The notes under the pieces: generated by a model
What the model was told of the DNA's origin: nothing
Seen by the model: the letters and a program-made list of their open reading frames with translations, nothing else
The model's database searches: none
Translations under genes and position numbers: made by a program
Shown: in pieces, positions 26,353-34,169 of the stretch
Position numbering within the stretch: the stretch's first letter is position 1
How the letters are laid out: every line of letters starts with the position of its first letter
From: a bacterium
GTDB lineage: Bacteria; Zixibacteria; MSB-5A5; WJJR01
Reading direction: 5' to 3'
NCBI GenBank assembly: GCA_035559435.1
Contig: DATMBC010000092.1
Location: 1 to 41,170 of the forward strand
DNA length: 41,170 nt

Positions 26353-29043
<2,691 letters not shown>

Positions 29044-29147
29044 GGTCGACTCCTCTCGTATCCTTTACGCCATTGACAGCGCGTCGTGCCGCACGCCCCG
29101 GGAGGACCGTGCCAGCGCGAGCAATACTTGTGGTTTTACAATGCTGA

Positions 29148-29417
29148 TTAAATGGCGGCTTTGGGTTTGGTGTCGGGGGATTTCGACGCGCCCGAGTCGC
29201 CGGAGTCTTTCTTCGAATCGTTCTTGTAGTCTGGCTTGCGGTAGTCGGTGATGTAGAAGCCGGAGCCCTTGAACAGCAGGCCGCCGCCGGGCGAGATGAG
29301 CCGTTCGACATCCGGCTTGCCGCAATTGGGGCAGACAGCCAGGGGCTTTTCGGTCATGGTCTGAAAGGCCTCGAAGCGGTGGCCGCAGACGCGGCAGCGA
29401 TAGTCGTAGGTCGGCAT
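29148..29417 (-). CDS. FmdB-family zinc-ribbon protein
   Basis: The protein has 89 residues. The N-terminus MPTYDYRC is the family signature. Four cysteines, C8 and C11 (CRVC) and C29 and C32 (CPNC), form a zinc ribbon; GGGLLFKGSGFYITDYRK is the conserved second half, followed by a charged low-complexity tail. Members are called putative regulatory proteins; their function is not established. ATG 29417 is chosen because GGGGGAG is nine bases upstream; an in-frame ATG at 29426 directly abuts that site. It lies between hsp20 and clpB on the same strand, which suggests a link to protein homeostasis. Confidence 0.88.
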   Translation of the reverse strand: MPTYDYRCRVCGHRFEAFQTMTEKPLAVCPNCGKPDVERLISPGGGLLFKGSGFYITDYRKPDYKNDSKKDSGDSGASKSPDTKPKAAI

Positions 29418-29518
29418 GGCGATCATCTCCCCCGCGCCGGCGGGCGCGGCAGATGATTAAGTTATCGGAATAGCGGCTCGAATTCAATCGGCATCACTCA
29501 CTTTCCCCTGATGTGAGC

Positions 29519-29551
29519 GGTCCCGCGGAAGCCGAGCGCCCCCGCGGGACC
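29519..29551 (-). terminator. Hairpin after hsp20
   Basis: GGTCCCGCGG and CCGCGGGACC form a 10-bp stem with a 13-base loop, 18 bases beyond the hsp20 stop codon. No T-run follows on the minus strand, so it may attenuate rather than fully stop transcription into the fmdB-like gene. Confidence 0.5.
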
Positions 29552-29569
29552 TTCTCGGAACAGGGGTTG

Positions 29570-30019
29570 TCAACTCACCTTGACCTCGATCTGCTTGGGC
29601 ATCGCCTTCTCGGTCTTGGGGATGGTGACGGTCAGGACGCCGTTGGTATAGTCGGCGCTCACTCGGGATTCATCGGCCCAAGCCGGGAGGTTGAACGAGC
29701 GCGAGAACGTGCCCATGAAGCGCTCGGTGCGGGTGTAGCCCTTGCGCTTCTCCTCACGGGACTCGTTGCGCTCGCCCTCGATCGTCAGGATGCCGTCCTG
29801 GACGACAACCTTGATGTTGTCTTTCTCCATGCCGGGCATGTCGGCCTTCAGCAGAACCTTGTCATCTTCCTCGACAATGTCCACCGACGGCCGGATGTTC
29901 AGGACCGGCAGATCGAGATTGGCCAACGGCGAGTTGTTAAAGAACTCGTCGAAGATGCTGGAGATGGCCCGCGAGAGCGGGACCGCGTTGCGCGTGGGTT
30001 CATACTTGACCAGTGACAT
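29570..30019 (-). CDS. Small heat-shock protein Hsp20/alpha-crystallin
   Basis: The protein has 149 residues. The alpha-crystallin domain spans about 44-135: PSVDIVEEDDKVLLKADMPG, GILTIEGER, RSFNLPAWAD and the closing NGVLTVTIPK. These are ATP-independent holdases that form oligomers and pass bound proteins to DnaK/ClpB. ATG 30019 has AAGGGGG eight bases upstream; an ATG at 30025 is too close to that site. First gene of the hsp20-fmdB-clpB group. No CIRCE element is seen upstream; an AT-rich dyad lies at 30162-30181. Confidence 0.95.
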   Translation of the reverse strand: MSLVKYEPTRNAVPLSRAISSIFDEFFNNSPLANLDLPVLNIRPSVDIVEEDDKVLLKADMPGMEKDNIKVVVQDGILTIEGERNESREEKRKGYTRTERFMGTFSRSFNLPAWADESRVSADYTNGVLTVTIPKTEKAMPKQIEVKVS

Positions 30020-30161
30020 ACGCATTACCCCCTTTCTTCTGAGTTAACTCATCCATGCGGCCTTGCGGCCGCTTCCGACCATCATGTATGCAGGAGGCGT
30101 GCCAAATCCCGTAAGGCGTTGGGGAGTAATAGAATATGACAATTGACTCATGACCAACATG

Positions 30162-30213: not shown

Positions 30214-31353
30214 TCAGTTGGCTGTCGATGTGGCAGGGGCGAGGCAGATCAGATTGCGTTTGGAGTCGGCCAGTAGGATGCGGTCGCCGGCTATGATCGG
30301 GGCGATGACCGCCTGGCCGGAGAGGGTGGTGTCGGCCCAGACCACCTCGCCGGTGGCGGCGGATAATGCGGTCACCAGGGCGTTGCGGGCGGTGACCAGG
30401 AGCAGATCGTTGCTGAGGGTGGGAGAGAGGTTGGCGATCGCATCGAGCGCGTAATCCCAGCGGATTTGGCCATTCTGACGGTCCAGCGCGGTGATGCGGC
30501 CATCGTTGGCGGCGACATAGATCAGATCGGAGCCGACCGCGGGTGTGGCGAAGATCCCGCCGCCGAGGCGGATATTCCACAGCAGATGGCCATCGCGGCA
30601 ATCCAGCGCGGTGACGAACGAGTCGGCGCCGCCGAAGAACAACTGGCCGCCATCGACCGCCACGCCCTCGATCGCTCCTGAGACCCCATGCTGCCAGAGG
30701 ATGGAGCCATCATCGGCCGCCAGCGCAAAGAGGGAGCGTCCGCTGGCGGCATAGACAACCGAATCGACCACCGCCGGCGCGGTGCGGATCGGTCCCTCAC
30801 ACTCGGTCTCCCAGAGGATCTCGCCCCGCGGCGTCAGCGCGCGCACCTGGGCACTCCAGGTCGAGATCAGGATCGTGGAGTCATTGAGCAACCGCGGCGG
30901 GGCACTGGCCGAGTGCACGCGGAAATCGGCGCGTTCCTTCCCCTTCTTCATGTCGAAGCGCACGAACCGTCGGTCCTCCTGATCGGTGAGGACCGCGAAG
31001 TCGGTCGCGAAGGCCAGCACGCCCAGCACCGGGCCATCGAGACGCTTGCGAAAGCGCCTCTTCCCGCTGGCCAGGTCATAGACTTCGATGCGCCGGTCCA
31101 GCCCGGGGAAAAAGACCAGTCCATCGCGCACCACCGGTTCGGAGGCGGCGACGCCGCCGGTCTTGACCGACCAGGCGACGGTGTACGGCACATCGGGCAG
31201 CGCCTGCGGGGCGCGTCCGGAGTTGGCCTGATCGGCGCGCGGGGTCGGCCAGCCGGCGGCCCCGGGCGATGGATACCACAATTTGGGCCGTCCGCCGGAG
31301 CAGGCGGCCAGCGCGAGGGCGGCCAGCGCGAGGGCAGGCAGGAAACGTCGCAT
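30214..31353 (-). CDS. PQQ-like beta-propeller lipoprotein (BamB-like)
   Basis: The protein has 379 residues. A lipoprotein signal ends in LAAC with C18. The rest shows tandem PQQ/WD-like blades: VVRDGLVFFPGLDRRIEVYD, GEILWETECEGPIRTAPAV, DGSILWQHGVSGAIEGVAV, DGHLLWNIRLGGGIFATPAV, NGQIRWDYALDAIANLSPT, TGEVVWADTTLSGQAVIAP. The fold is that of BamB, which assists outer-membrane protein assembly, but true BamB identity is not proven. ATG 31353 shares one base with the TGA of the upstream gene (TGATG) and has GGTGGAA before it, so translation is coupled to the MA-peptidase/barrel protein. Confidence 0.87.
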   Translation of the reverse strand: MRRFLPALALAALALAACSGGRPKLWYPSPGAAGWPTPRADQANSGRAPQALPDVPYTVAWSVKTGGVAASEPVVRDGLVFFPGLDRRIEVYDLASGKRRFRKRLDGPVLGVLAFATDFAVLTDQEDRRFVRFDMKKGKERADFRVHSASAPPRLLNDSTILISTWSAQVRALTPRGEILWETECEGPIRTAPAVVDSVVYAASGRSLFALAADDGSILWQHGVSGAIEGVAVDGGQLFFGGADSFVTALDCRDGHLLWNIRLGGGIFATPAVGSDLIYVAANDGRITALDRQNGQIRWDYALDAIANLSPTLSNDLLLVTARNALVTALSAATGEVVWADTTLSGQAVIAPIIAGDRILLADSKRNLICLAPATSTAN

Positions 31354-34169
31354 CAGAAGTTCCACCCGAAGAAGAACTCGAAGCGGGTCTTCTTGTCGAT
31401 GGTGCGGAAGTCGGTGCGCCGCGCCCAGTCGAAGCGCAGCACGACCAGGTAGCCGAGCGCGACGCGGGCGCCGAGTCCCAGCGAACCCTCCATGCGTCCG
31501 AATTCCTCCTCCCAGGCGTTGCCGGCATCGAAGAACAGCGCGCCGCGGATGGCCTGGAAGCCGAGATCGGCGACCGGGAAACCGACGAAGAGCGCATCGA
31601 TGAGCGGGAAGCGCAGCTCGTTGGAGGCGAGCACGACATTGCGGGCATAGACATCGCGGCGATCATAGCCGCGCAGGTCCCAGCTGCCGCCGAAGTAGCG
31701 TCGTTGCGGTTCATGGCCGGAAGAGAAATGCCCCATCAGGCGCATGGCGAAGGCGGAGTAGCGACCGAGCCGGAAGTACTTGCGGGCGTCGGCGATCACC
31801 AGTCGGTTGAAACTGCGGAAGTTCGACAGATCGGCGGTGTAGCCGGCGGTGAGCATGAAGCGCCAGCCATCGATCGGCCCGGAGATATCCCAGAGCGAAT
31901 TGTCATGCACCAGCGAGAGGAATTGCGTGGCCAGCACCGCCTTGCGCGTGTCGGTGAGGATCGATGCGCGGTCGGAGTGGCGCAGGTACAGCGAACTCTC
32001 GATGCGGCGGAACTTCGAGAGCGGGTAGGCGAGGTAGCCGGCGACGCCGATCTGCCGTTCCTCGATCGGGCCTTCGACCGGATCGTTGTAGTCATAGAAC
32101 AGATGGTAGGCGCCGTAGCCGTAATTGAGACGGTTCTCGCGGTTGAAGTACGAGACGGCAACGTTGAAGCTCTGGAGGAATTCATCCTTGGTGTCGGCGT
32201 TGTTGGCCAGCAGGAAGAAGTACTGGTGGTCGCCGAGGACATCGGTGAGCGCGGTCTGGAAACCGCCGACGGTGCCATAGAAGGCATCGTAGGAGACCGC
32301 CGACTGGGCAATGTCGAAGGAGAAATCACGTTCGTATTTCACCGCGCTTTTGGTCATCTCGCCGGAGCCGGCCTCGGGCTGCCAGGTGGGCTCCCACGGT
32401 CCATTGCCGGCGGCCAGAAGCTCGGAAGGCAGCGTGTCGGGCAGATCCATGCGGTAGATCTGGAAGCCGCTGTTCTGGTAGGCGGTGAAGACGATGCTTT
32501 GGCCGTCGGGCATCAGGTGCGGATCGAAGGCGCCGGTGGCCAGATGGGTGAGCTTCTGGCGGCGGCCATCGGCGAAGTGACGGTAGATGTCCAGCACCCC
32601 TTCCTCATCGGAGGTGTAGACCATCGACCCGCCGTCGGGAGCATAGGAGGGGCCGCGCAGGTTGTGCGCGCCGGTCAGGTAGGGGCTGATGCGGCCGGTC
32701 TTGAAATCATAGAGGAAGAGATTGAGAAACCCCCGGGCGCCATGCGCGCCGCGATCGGAGGCAAAGAGAACCGCCGATCCATCGGGGGTAAAGACCGGAT
32801 CAATGTCGAAAAACCAGTCATCGGTCAGACGGTCGAGCGCGCCGGAGGCCAGATCGAGGTGGTAGAGATCATAGACGCCGTCCTTGCCGGAGCCGGCGAA
32901 GATGACGCGCCGTCCATCGGCGGAGTAGTGCGGCGAGCTGATATTGTAGAGCGAATCCCAGCGGTGCTCGCCGACGATTCTTCTGGTGGCGGCGTCGAGT
33001 TCATAGAGGACGTCGCGTTCATGCCGCTGGCCGGAGAAGACCACCCGGCCATCGTGGACATCCAACGATGAGCCCAGCAGGTGCAGCGACTCGAAGCGCG
33101 GCGAGCGCTCGCCTTTGAGCAGGACCTCGACGTCGCGTTCCGCGCCGCCGGGGGCGGCATTGGTGCGGTAAATGCCGGCGTAGCCGAGGCGGTTCGCCTT
33201 GAAGATGATCTGGTCGACGGTGTCGGCGCCCTCAATGGCCCGCACCGGGACCGGTTTGACACTGTAGCCGGGCTTGGTGAGCGGTTCGTAGACGCGGTCG
33301 GGAAGTTCACGGGACTGAATGGTCGGGAAGTACTTCTTCTTCAGCCAATATTCCCACTCGCGGCCGATCTCCTCCAGACTCTTGCCGAAGGTGTACCTTG
33401 CCACGCCGTAGAAGTCGGGGGCGCGCCAGCAGTTGTCGAGCAGGTAGATCAGGTACTCGGCGCCGTAGGTCTCGGCGACGAAGTGGCAAAACGACTCCCC
33501 CTCCTTGTACATGAGGTAGGTGCCGGCGATGGCGTCGATGCGTTCGAGGTTGAAGAAGCGGCCGGTCAGAACCAGGTCGCTTAAGATCATCTCGGCGTCG
33601 GATTCCCACGGCCGCGAGAAGTACTCGGCGATCCCCTCGGTGAACCAGAGCGGCGGCGCGGCAACGTTCAGCTTCTTGTACTTCGACGCGACCGCGGACA
33701 GCTTCGAGTAGGTGAAGACATGGACCAACTCATGTTGCAGGACGCGGCGGAAATCCTCATAGGAGCCGTTGAACGGCAGCACGACCCGCCCCTTGAAGAA
33801 TTCGGTGAATCCGGCGACGTTCTCGGGCAGGAGCGACGAGATCACGTTCGTCTGCGTGAAAAAGCGCGGCGACGAGTAGATGATCAGCGGAATCCGGTCG
33901 TTGCACTCGTGGTTGAAGCGGTCGGCCAGGTAGTCGTAGGAGTCATGGGCCGCCTCGGCGGCGATTTCGGCCAGCTCGCGTTCGGCGTCATAGAAGTAGA
34001 TGTCGAACTTGTCGGTGGCGAGGACCTGCCATTCAAAGTCGGTGTACTGAACCTTGTTCTTGCCAAAGTAGTACTGCGCGTCGACCGGGGCGGCACAGAC
34101 GGCCACCAGGAGGGCGGCCGCGATCAGGCGGCCCATCCGGCACGGATTCTGGTGGTGGAGGCGGCGCAT
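31353..34169 (-). CDS. Peptidase-MA-like domain, TolB-type propeller and Omp85-type barrel in one protein
   Basis: The protein has 938 residues. Residues 1-31 are a signal peptide. Residues about 40-260 are a peptidase-MA-like gluzincin domain with HELVH at 146-150 and WFTEGIAEYFS near 175-185 supplying the third ligand. Residues about 320-600 carry PD40/TolB-like blades (YSADGRRVIFAGSGKDGVYDL, FTPDGSAVLFASDRGAH, YAPDGGSMVYTSDEEGVLDIY, LMPDGQSIVFTAYQNSGFQIY). The C-terminal 300 residues are beta-barrel in character, with the Omp85 signature GGSWDLRGY (LRGY at 832) and FFDAGNAW. It should sit in the outer membrane with the other domains in the periplasm or outside. The start may instead be ATG 34136 (MGRLIAAALL). 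Zinc protease activity is inferred from the motif only. Confidence 0.83.
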   Translation of the reverse strand: MRRLHHQNPCRMGRLIAAALLVAVCAAPVDAQYYFGKNKVQYTDFEWQVLATDKFDIYFYDAERELAEIAAEAAHDSYDYLADRFNHECNDRIPLIIYSSPRFFTQTNVISSLLPENVAGFTEFFKGRVVLPFNGSYEDFRRVLQHELVHVFTYSKLSAVASKYKKLNVAAPPLWFTEGIAEYFSRPWESDAEMILSDLVLTGRFFNLERIDAIAGTYLMYKEGESFCHFVAETYGAEYLIYLLDNCWRAPDFYGVARYTFGKSLEEIGREWEYWLKKKYFPTIQSRELPDRVYEPLTKPGYSVKPVPVRAIEGADTVDQIIFKANRLGYAGIYRTNAAPGGAERDVEVLLKGERSPRFESLHLLGSSLDVHDGRVVFSGQRHERDVLYELDAATRRIVGEHRWDSLYNISSPHYSADGRRVIFAGSGKDGVYDLYHLDLASGALDRLTDDWFFDIDPVFTPDGSAVLFASDRGAHGARGFLNLFLYDFKTGRISPYLTGAHNLRGPSYAPDGGSMVYTSDEEGVLDIYRHFADGRRQKLTHLATGAFDPHLMPDGQSIVFTAYQNSGFQIYRMDLPDTLPSELLAAGNGPWEPTWQPEAGSGEMTKSAVKYERDFSFDIAQSAVSYDAFYGTVGGFQTALTDVLGDHQYFFLLANNADTKDEFLQSFNVAVSYFNRENRLNYGYGAYHLFYDYNDPVEGPIEERQIGVAGYLAYPLSKFRRIESSLYLRHSDRASILTDTRKAVLATQFLSLVHDNSLWDISGPIDGWRFMLTAGYTADLSNFRSFNRLVIADARKYFRLGRYSAFAMRLMGHFSSGHEPQRRYFGGSWDLRGYDRRDVYARNVVLASNELRFPLIDALFVGFPVADLGFQAIRGALFFDAGNAWEEEFGRMEGSLGLGARVALGYLVVLRFDWARRTDFRTIDKKTRFEFFFGWNF

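Follow-up and report, generated by a model that had tools for sequence, protein, structure and literature searches.

What does an Omp85-type barrel do when a protease-like domain and a propeller take the place usually held by POTRA domains, and when a lipoprotein gene starts on its stop codon? The question is raised by a 41,170-nucleotide stretch of DNA from a bacterium of the Zixibacteria (assembly GCA_035559435.1, contig DATMBC010000092.1, positions 1 to 41,170; "the window" hereafter means this whole stretch), in which a gene for a 938-residue protein of this layout is followed on the same strand by one for a BamB-like lipoprotein. The 938-residue protein belongs to one of two paralogous groups, A and B. 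We find that its predicted zinc-binding and catalytic residues are invariant among full-length relatives, and that the lipoprotein gene is inherited and lost together with paralogue A.

Domain architecture and predicted catalytic residues

A preliminary description of the window had placed HELVH, TEGIAEYF, PD40 blades and GGSWDLRGY in one chain, and all of them are located in a single 938-residue open reading frame (Table 1). Pfam searches of the protein returned PD40 repeats (PF07676) over four stretches (E 1.9e-21) and an Omp85 match (PF01103) on the C-terminus (E 6.3e-9; score 36.2 bits, cut-off 24); its NCBIfam matches are TolB-like and Omp85-like, every one of them under cut-off. At E <= 1, the Pfam matches include no M48, tetratricopeptide repeat (TPR) or patatin family and no POTRA domain (PF07244), of which a 957-residue frame on a separate contig of the same genome (C65), its evident BamA, shows five. 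The AlphaFold2 model agrees with this layout, bearing out the earlier statement that a protease-like domain and a propeller replace POTRA.

The model, built on an alignment of 77 sequences, has a mean predicted local distance difference test score (pLDDT) of 84.4 and a predicted template modelling score (pTM) of 0.83. It contains a mixed α/β domain at about residues 33-293, in which HELVH falls within a helix (137-163) preceded by a short strand (129-132), followed first by a six-bladed propeller (about 300-580) and then by 16 long strands spanning 616-936. In structural comparisons, the propeller matches TolB (Z 26.6 over 243 residues, root-mean-square deviation (rmsd) 2.5) and the barrel matches BamA of Deinococcus radiodurans (Z 24.9 over 307 residues, rmsd 3.4), as well as Sam50 and TamA (Z 22-24). 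A barrel unlike Omp85 is ruled out by these barrel matches, which span Z 22-25, and the Omp85 assignment of the preliminary description holds. TolB, BamA, TamA and Sam50 dominate the matches listed in the whole-model fold search, TolB/Pal structures being among them; there is no separate row for the peptidase domain, and the search is uninformative on its fold. When a profile of the peptidase domain was compared with solved structures, just collagenases and others were returned, at E 0.03 or worse. Residues 33-123 (window 33801-34073) hold further invariant positions, namely FGxNK, T107, N108, E116 and G120, in stretches that are modelled with low confidence and might serve as a flap or as a contact surface for a partner.

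Conservation was assessed on 77 full-length sequences, whose selection relied on length and coverage and made no use of motifs, after 8 of 85 matches were dropped as duplicate or truncated. Identity to the 938-residue protein across these relatives runs from 72% down to 31%, with B paralogues at 31-35%. His146, Glu147, His150, Glu178 and Glu182 are invariant in all 77, and because this holds even at the identities of paralogue B, the zinc-peptidase motif is more than chance; a chance HExxH match is thereby ruled out. HExxH with a downstream glutamate is the gluzincin-type pattern, in which Glu178 would, judging from the sequence, act as ligand. In the loop-6 motif of the barrel, the invariant Arg833 is followed by a glycine (Gly834) in 90% or more of the 77 sequences. 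In a smaller set of 29 aligned proteins, PF13485 (Peptidase_MA_2) matches every N-terminal domain at E <= 0.01 (best 1.7e-15), and Omp85 is matched by 24 of the 29 barrel domains, 12 of which match ShlB in addition. All 29 barrels end in Phe or Tyr. Since such a residue usually closes the signal by which the β-barrel assembly machinery (BAM) recognises its clients, the barrel protein is probably a BAM client itself.

Table 1. Positions in the window of the two coupled genes and of the domains and motifs of the barrel protein.
Feature	Coordinates	Strand	Basis and remarks
Peptidase-propeller-Omp85 protein, paralogue A	31353..34169	minus	938-residue open reading frame; Pfam; AlphaFold model
Probable signal peptide, residues 1-31	34077..34169	minus	Cleavage after VDA by eye; model pLDDT < 50
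Peptidase_MA-like domain, residues 33-293	33291..34073	minus	Pfam, alignment, model
HELVH, predicted zinc-binding/catalytic motif, residues 146-150	33720..33734	minus	H, E, H invariant 77/77
TEGIAEYF, residues 177-184	33618..33641	minus	Invariant 77/77: E178, probably the third zinc ligand, and E182
Six-bladed TolB-like (PD40) propeller, residues about 300-580	32430..33272	minus	PF07676 and fold match
Omp85-type 16-stranded barrel, residues 616-938	31356..32324	minus	PF01103, model strands, fold match
GGSWDLRGY, residues 827-835, counterpart of loop-6 RGY/F	31665..31691	minus	G827, G828, R833 invariant (77 sequences)
BamB-like lipoprotein, 383 residues from GTG	30214..31365	minus	Pfam, 8-bladed model; likelier start ATG at 31353

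The BamB-like lipoprotein and its pairing with paralogue A

The coupled lipoprotein gene anticipated by the preliminary description exists. Its 383-residue product carries a lipobox (LAAC, Cys22) and a PQQ_2 match (E 2.3e-40), and its likely ATG (31353-31351) shares one base with the stop codon of the barrel gene in the sequence TGATG. Stop and start overlap in the same way at 18 of 54 A loci, and as TAATG at another 8. The lipoprotein model is an eight-bladed propeller (pLDDT 90.9) that resembles Escherichia coli BamB in a fold search (Z 34.8 over 316 residues, rmsd 2.3). Like BamB, then, the protein has a lipobox and an eight-bladed propeller; unlike BamB, it stays under the cut-off of the BamB equivalog TIGR03300 (151.4 bits, cut-off 285.2), and other eight-bladed propellers fit its model better (YxaL, Z 40.8). 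The fold by itself is therefore insufficient to call the protein BamB, and given the TIGR03300 score we label it BamB-like only. It is the sole BamB-like protein found in its genome, where frames of about 1500 residues account for the remaining PQQ_2 matches; large frames of 1516 and 1529 residues with PQQ-type propeller matches are present at C64:5600-11038 (L118, L120). Across 56 BamB-like proteins, 35 pass an automatic lipobox rule, of which at least one (L010) looks misplaced, and several others show a lipobox by eye.

To follow the pairing in Zixibacteria, we used a selection of A loci, namely the window, the best-scoring loci of 132 genomes and one named contig. With a profile of Zixibacteria lipoproteins, a BamB-like open reading frame was found close downstream on the same strand in 30 of 31 loci; the exception (L017) has just 151 bases of downstream room, so that the count is 30/30 among loci with room. 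In Neomarinimicrobiota, we assign paralogue A to 29 of 149 genomes (matches at E <= 2.1e-95; those past this limit are read as B-type or weaker still). When whole genomes were searched with 56 lipoproteins, a near-full-length match of at least 228 bits was obtained in 28 of these 29, and the last (G133) has a lipoprotein fragment at a contig end, directly behind its A gene. None of the 120 genomes without A has a lipoprotein match above 191 bits, and the matches they do have are mostly partial and mostly inside larger proteins. The profile contained A-locus lipoproteins, and the scores in A-bearing genomes are therefore high by construction; it is the absence from the other genomes that is informative. 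The co-occurrence gives a Fisher p of 1.9e-29, a descriptive value that ignores shared ancestry. Adjacency of the two genes was seen at 28 of the 29 Neomarinimicrobiota loci, the remaining one (G270) being split over contigs. In both phyla, then, this survey of co-occurrence upholds the coupling.

Little else travels with the pair. In 1.5-kb flanks, RelA is the sole recurring gene of the window besides the two, and it is limited to the window and its six nearest relatives, which rules out general synteny as the source of the pairing. In 6-kb flanks, an Hsp20 gene recurs in two loci (L040 and L041), and glycosyltransferases are found in another (L043). The lipoprotein sequence itself drifts fast while its presence beside A stays constant: mean column identity is 28% for the lipoprotein, compared with 58% in the peptidase domain and 47% in the barrel, the latter two values being taken from smaller sets that include paralogue B. 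Beyond the pair, on the same strand of the window, positions 26353-30025 encode ClpB, an FmdB-type zinc-ribbon protein and Hsp20, a proteostasis cluster.

Paralogues, distribution and relation to described Omp85 classes

The distribution survey covers essentially Zixibacteria and Neomarinimicrobiota. A family match at E <= 1e-10 was found in 132 of 132 Zixibacteria genomes, including 78 of 78 near-complete ones, in a count that does not assign the paralogue per genome and may include some matches to the propeller alone; in Neomarinimicrobiota the figure is 148 of 149. A single scan of genome contigs gave six loci, all from Zixibacteria or Marinimicrobia, and the relatives of the window in named records are Candidatus Zixiibacteriota. 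A tree of 47 proteins, obtained by a quick method with a midpoint root, has the form ((zA,nA),(zB,nB)), where z and n stand for the two phyla, with every group on one side of a branch at a support of 97-100. The duplication into A and B is hence older than the split between Zixibacteria and Neomarinimicrobiota, or else there was early transfer between them; by sequence, the tree looks like vertical descent of the family across both phyla.

Paralogue B of the same genome is a 1082-residue frame of the same architecture (C103:26064-29261; L089 6523-9768), and it exceeds the PF13485 cut-off of 32.4 bits, with 41.7 and 38.0 bits in two scans. Its neighbourhood is a different one. A BamB-like partner was found beside B in none of 20 Zixibacteria loci, 18 of which have at least 1.2 kb downstream, and in none of 18 Neomarinimicrobiota loci. 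All 20 Zixibacteria B loci contain a murA-like gene, and an lpxH-like gene lies near B in 10 of these 20 and in 12 of the 18 Neomarinimicrobiota loci.

The viral contigs searched held no relative. Among plasmids, 34 records match, none reaching 80% query coverage, and two were examined further. The Salinibacter ruber plasmid pSR116 encodes WP_118831798.1 (633 residues; L149 3908-5809), annotated as a "basic secretory protein-like protein", which shares with the 938-residue protein an FGKNK start, HELVH, EGMAEY and a PD40 propeller but is barrel-less. The peptidase-propeller unit thus also occurs by itself, which makes the barrel look like a later addition serving as anchor or pore. The gene that follows in S. 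ruber, a cultured organism, belongs to the serine carboxypeptidase (S10) family.

Propeller-Omp85 proteins have been described before. Heinz and Lithgow (2014) classed as "WD40-Omp85", without known function, proteins with a TolB-like propeller N-terminal to a POTRA-less Omp85 barrel, which they liken to a BamA-BamB fusion (PMC4104836), and the WD40-like group is still given as not well characterised (PMC11116518). The 938-residue protein agrees with that definition in its propeller, its barrel and its lack of POTRA, but differs in its HExxH peptidase domain and its lipoprotein partner, neither of which is mentioned for this group in the passages of PMC4104836 and PMC11116518 covered here. Minor Omp85 subfamilies are described there as being conserved within genera and dispersed by transfer (PMC4104836), unlike the present family, whose inheritance looks vertical across two phyla. 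In our searches of the open-licence literature, we recognised no description of a peptidase-propeller-Omp85 protein or of a BamB-like partner of one. PF00149 is a metallophosphoesterase family, and a class named "Omp85-metalloprotease" on its basis may therefore carry a misleading name. This "Metallo" class of Heinz and Lithgow, defined by PF00149, is not the 938-residue protein (PMC4104836).

A candidate quality-control peptidase and its alternatives

Our tentative reading, to which we give a little less than an even chance, is that paralogue A is a zinc metallopeptidase of the periplasm, anchored in the outer membrane, which has a BamB-like subunit of its own and acts in the assembly and quality control of outer-membrane proteins. 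We count in its favour the invariant HExxH...E pattern (77/77), the folds, the pairing of A with the lipoprotein, the vertical tree and the terminal Phe or Tyr (29/29), together with the envelope genes beside paralogue B (murA and often an lpxH-like gene). The ordinary BAM of the cell would insert the barrel, which would in turn tether both soluble domains to the periplasmic face of the outer membrane. Unfolded barrel precursors could dock on a platform made up of the propeller and the lipoprotein, and the peptidase may cleave stalled clients or trim one particular client, the whole merging the functions of BepA, BamB and an Omp85 barrel in a two-gene assembly and quality-control device.

Two parts of this reading lean on known proteins. 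PlpD, a patatin-POTRA-Omp85 protein (type Vd), likewise has an enzyme domain N-terminal to an Omp85 barrel, although this is a patatin lipase accompanied by a POTRA; its N-terminal domain stays in the periplasm (PMC11116518), and by analogy the peptidase-propeller part would do the same. The word "lipoprotein" is absent from the main text of that paper (PMC11116518). BepA, a periplasmic M48 peptidase, promotes or degrades LptD as it assembles on BAM (PMC8423444), and stalled or specific clients would by this analogy be cut by the peptidase of paralogue A. The likeness is one of working, a predicted periplasmic zinc peptidase at the outer membrane; the 938-residue protein belongs to another peptidase family, and BepA, an E. 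coli protein of M48 and TPR, has neither barrel nor propeller.

Several observations weigh against the reading. The 938-residue protein reaches only 21.0-25.0 bits against PF13485, under the cut-off of 32.4, and its residues 107-120, which contain invariant positions, have a pLDDT below 50 in the model. The same genome has four M48 matches, including ones in a 526-residue and a 765-residue frame, so that a BepA-like role may already be filled. Given the barrel-less S. ruber relative, the job of the soluble part may also be unrelated to barrel assembly. The M48 match in the 765-residue frame lies at C83:30599-32239 (L007, L147), where a frame of equal length has propeller matches to the 938-residue protein; it is possibly a second, independent peptidase-propeller combination.

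The genome also bears on how independent the device can be. It encodes seven Omp85-type barrels, and besides the five-POTRA BamA there are two more POTRA-Omp85 proteins. As a candidate for the genome's main BamA, the 938-residue protein is ruled out by the five-POTRA protein; it is therefore not the main insertase, and the device would add to BAM without replacing it. This, and the resemblance of the barrel C-terminus to a signal recognised by BAM, makes the "self-contained" device of the preliminary description doubtful. In its 16-stranded Omp85 barrel, its RGY-type loop-6 motif and the eight-bladed BamB-like lipoprotein encoded next to it, the system does resemble BamA and BAM, with the difference that the peptidase and propeller stand where BamA has POTRA.

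The strongest alternative, which we consider somewhat unlikely, is a second, specialised insertase whose barrel folds a few clients through a lateral gate, with the propeller and lipoprotein as receptors and a peptidase that matures clients and does not destroy them. The BamB-like partner is constant, as such a role would have it, and the first barrel strands (616-640) have a lower pLDDT in the model (about 51-79), as would be expected of a mobile gate. Every Omp85 protein studied functionally before PlpD assembled or translocated proteins, but insertion is not a necessary task of an Omp85 barrel, as PlpD shows (PMC11116518); also against an insertase stand the failure to find POTRA at E <= 1 and the presence of BamA and two other POTRA-Omp85 proteins in the genome. 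Unlikely, in our estimate, is a BAM-like machine of its own kind, in which a POTRA-less insertase barrel, a propeller-gated zinc peptidase and a dedicated BamB-like subunit would form one two-gene unit that takes outer-membrane precursors and inserts or destroys them, and would have been inherited vertically from a time before the split between Zixibacteria and Neomarinimicrobiota.

Export of the peptidase-propeller part by its own barrel, giving a surface-displayed or secreted protease, follows an idea once proposed for PlpD (type Vd), and an N-terminal enzyme with a C-terminal barrel is indeed the type V layout. The barrel-less S. ruber relative, too, resembles a secreted enzyme. However, the Omp85 pore would have to let through folded domains of some 580 residues, a lipoprotein facing the periplasm would be left without obvious use, and PlpD, the model for the idea, keeps its enzyme domain periplasmic (PMC11116518); we regard export as very unlikely.

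TolB-like propellers bind Pal in the Tol system, and the B loci described above hold murA-like and lpxH-like genes. Both observations could suggest an envelope lipid or cell-wall factor that processes proteins coordinating lipopolysaccharide or peptidoglycan, not barrel proteins. These neighbours belong to B, not to the A of the window, and no such neighbour lies beside A in the loci mapped; we regard this explanation, too, as very unlikely. Weakest of all is a catalytically inert scaffold, its peptidase fold retained purely for binding: envelope factors can carry dead enzyme domains and the PF13485 score is under cut-off, but a dead domain would not need five predicted zinc-binding and catalytic residues invariant in 77/77 sequences, and we give this very little credence.

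The propeller-barrel architecture is thus already known; what appears new, within the open-licence literature searched, is the invariance of the peptidase, the constancy of its lipoprotein partner and the ancient, almost universal distribution of two paralogues. Nearly all Gram-negative bacteria have Omp85 proteins that build their outer membrane or cross it, and the branches lacking POTRA have so far been without an assigned function. Here, a branch that is near-universal in two phyla always keeps its predicted catalytic residues, and its partner gene comes and goes along with paralogue A. This yields a concrete, testable hypothesis for a little-studied group of bacteria, that of a quality-control peptidase anchored in the outer membrane and equipped with a BamB-like subunit of its own.

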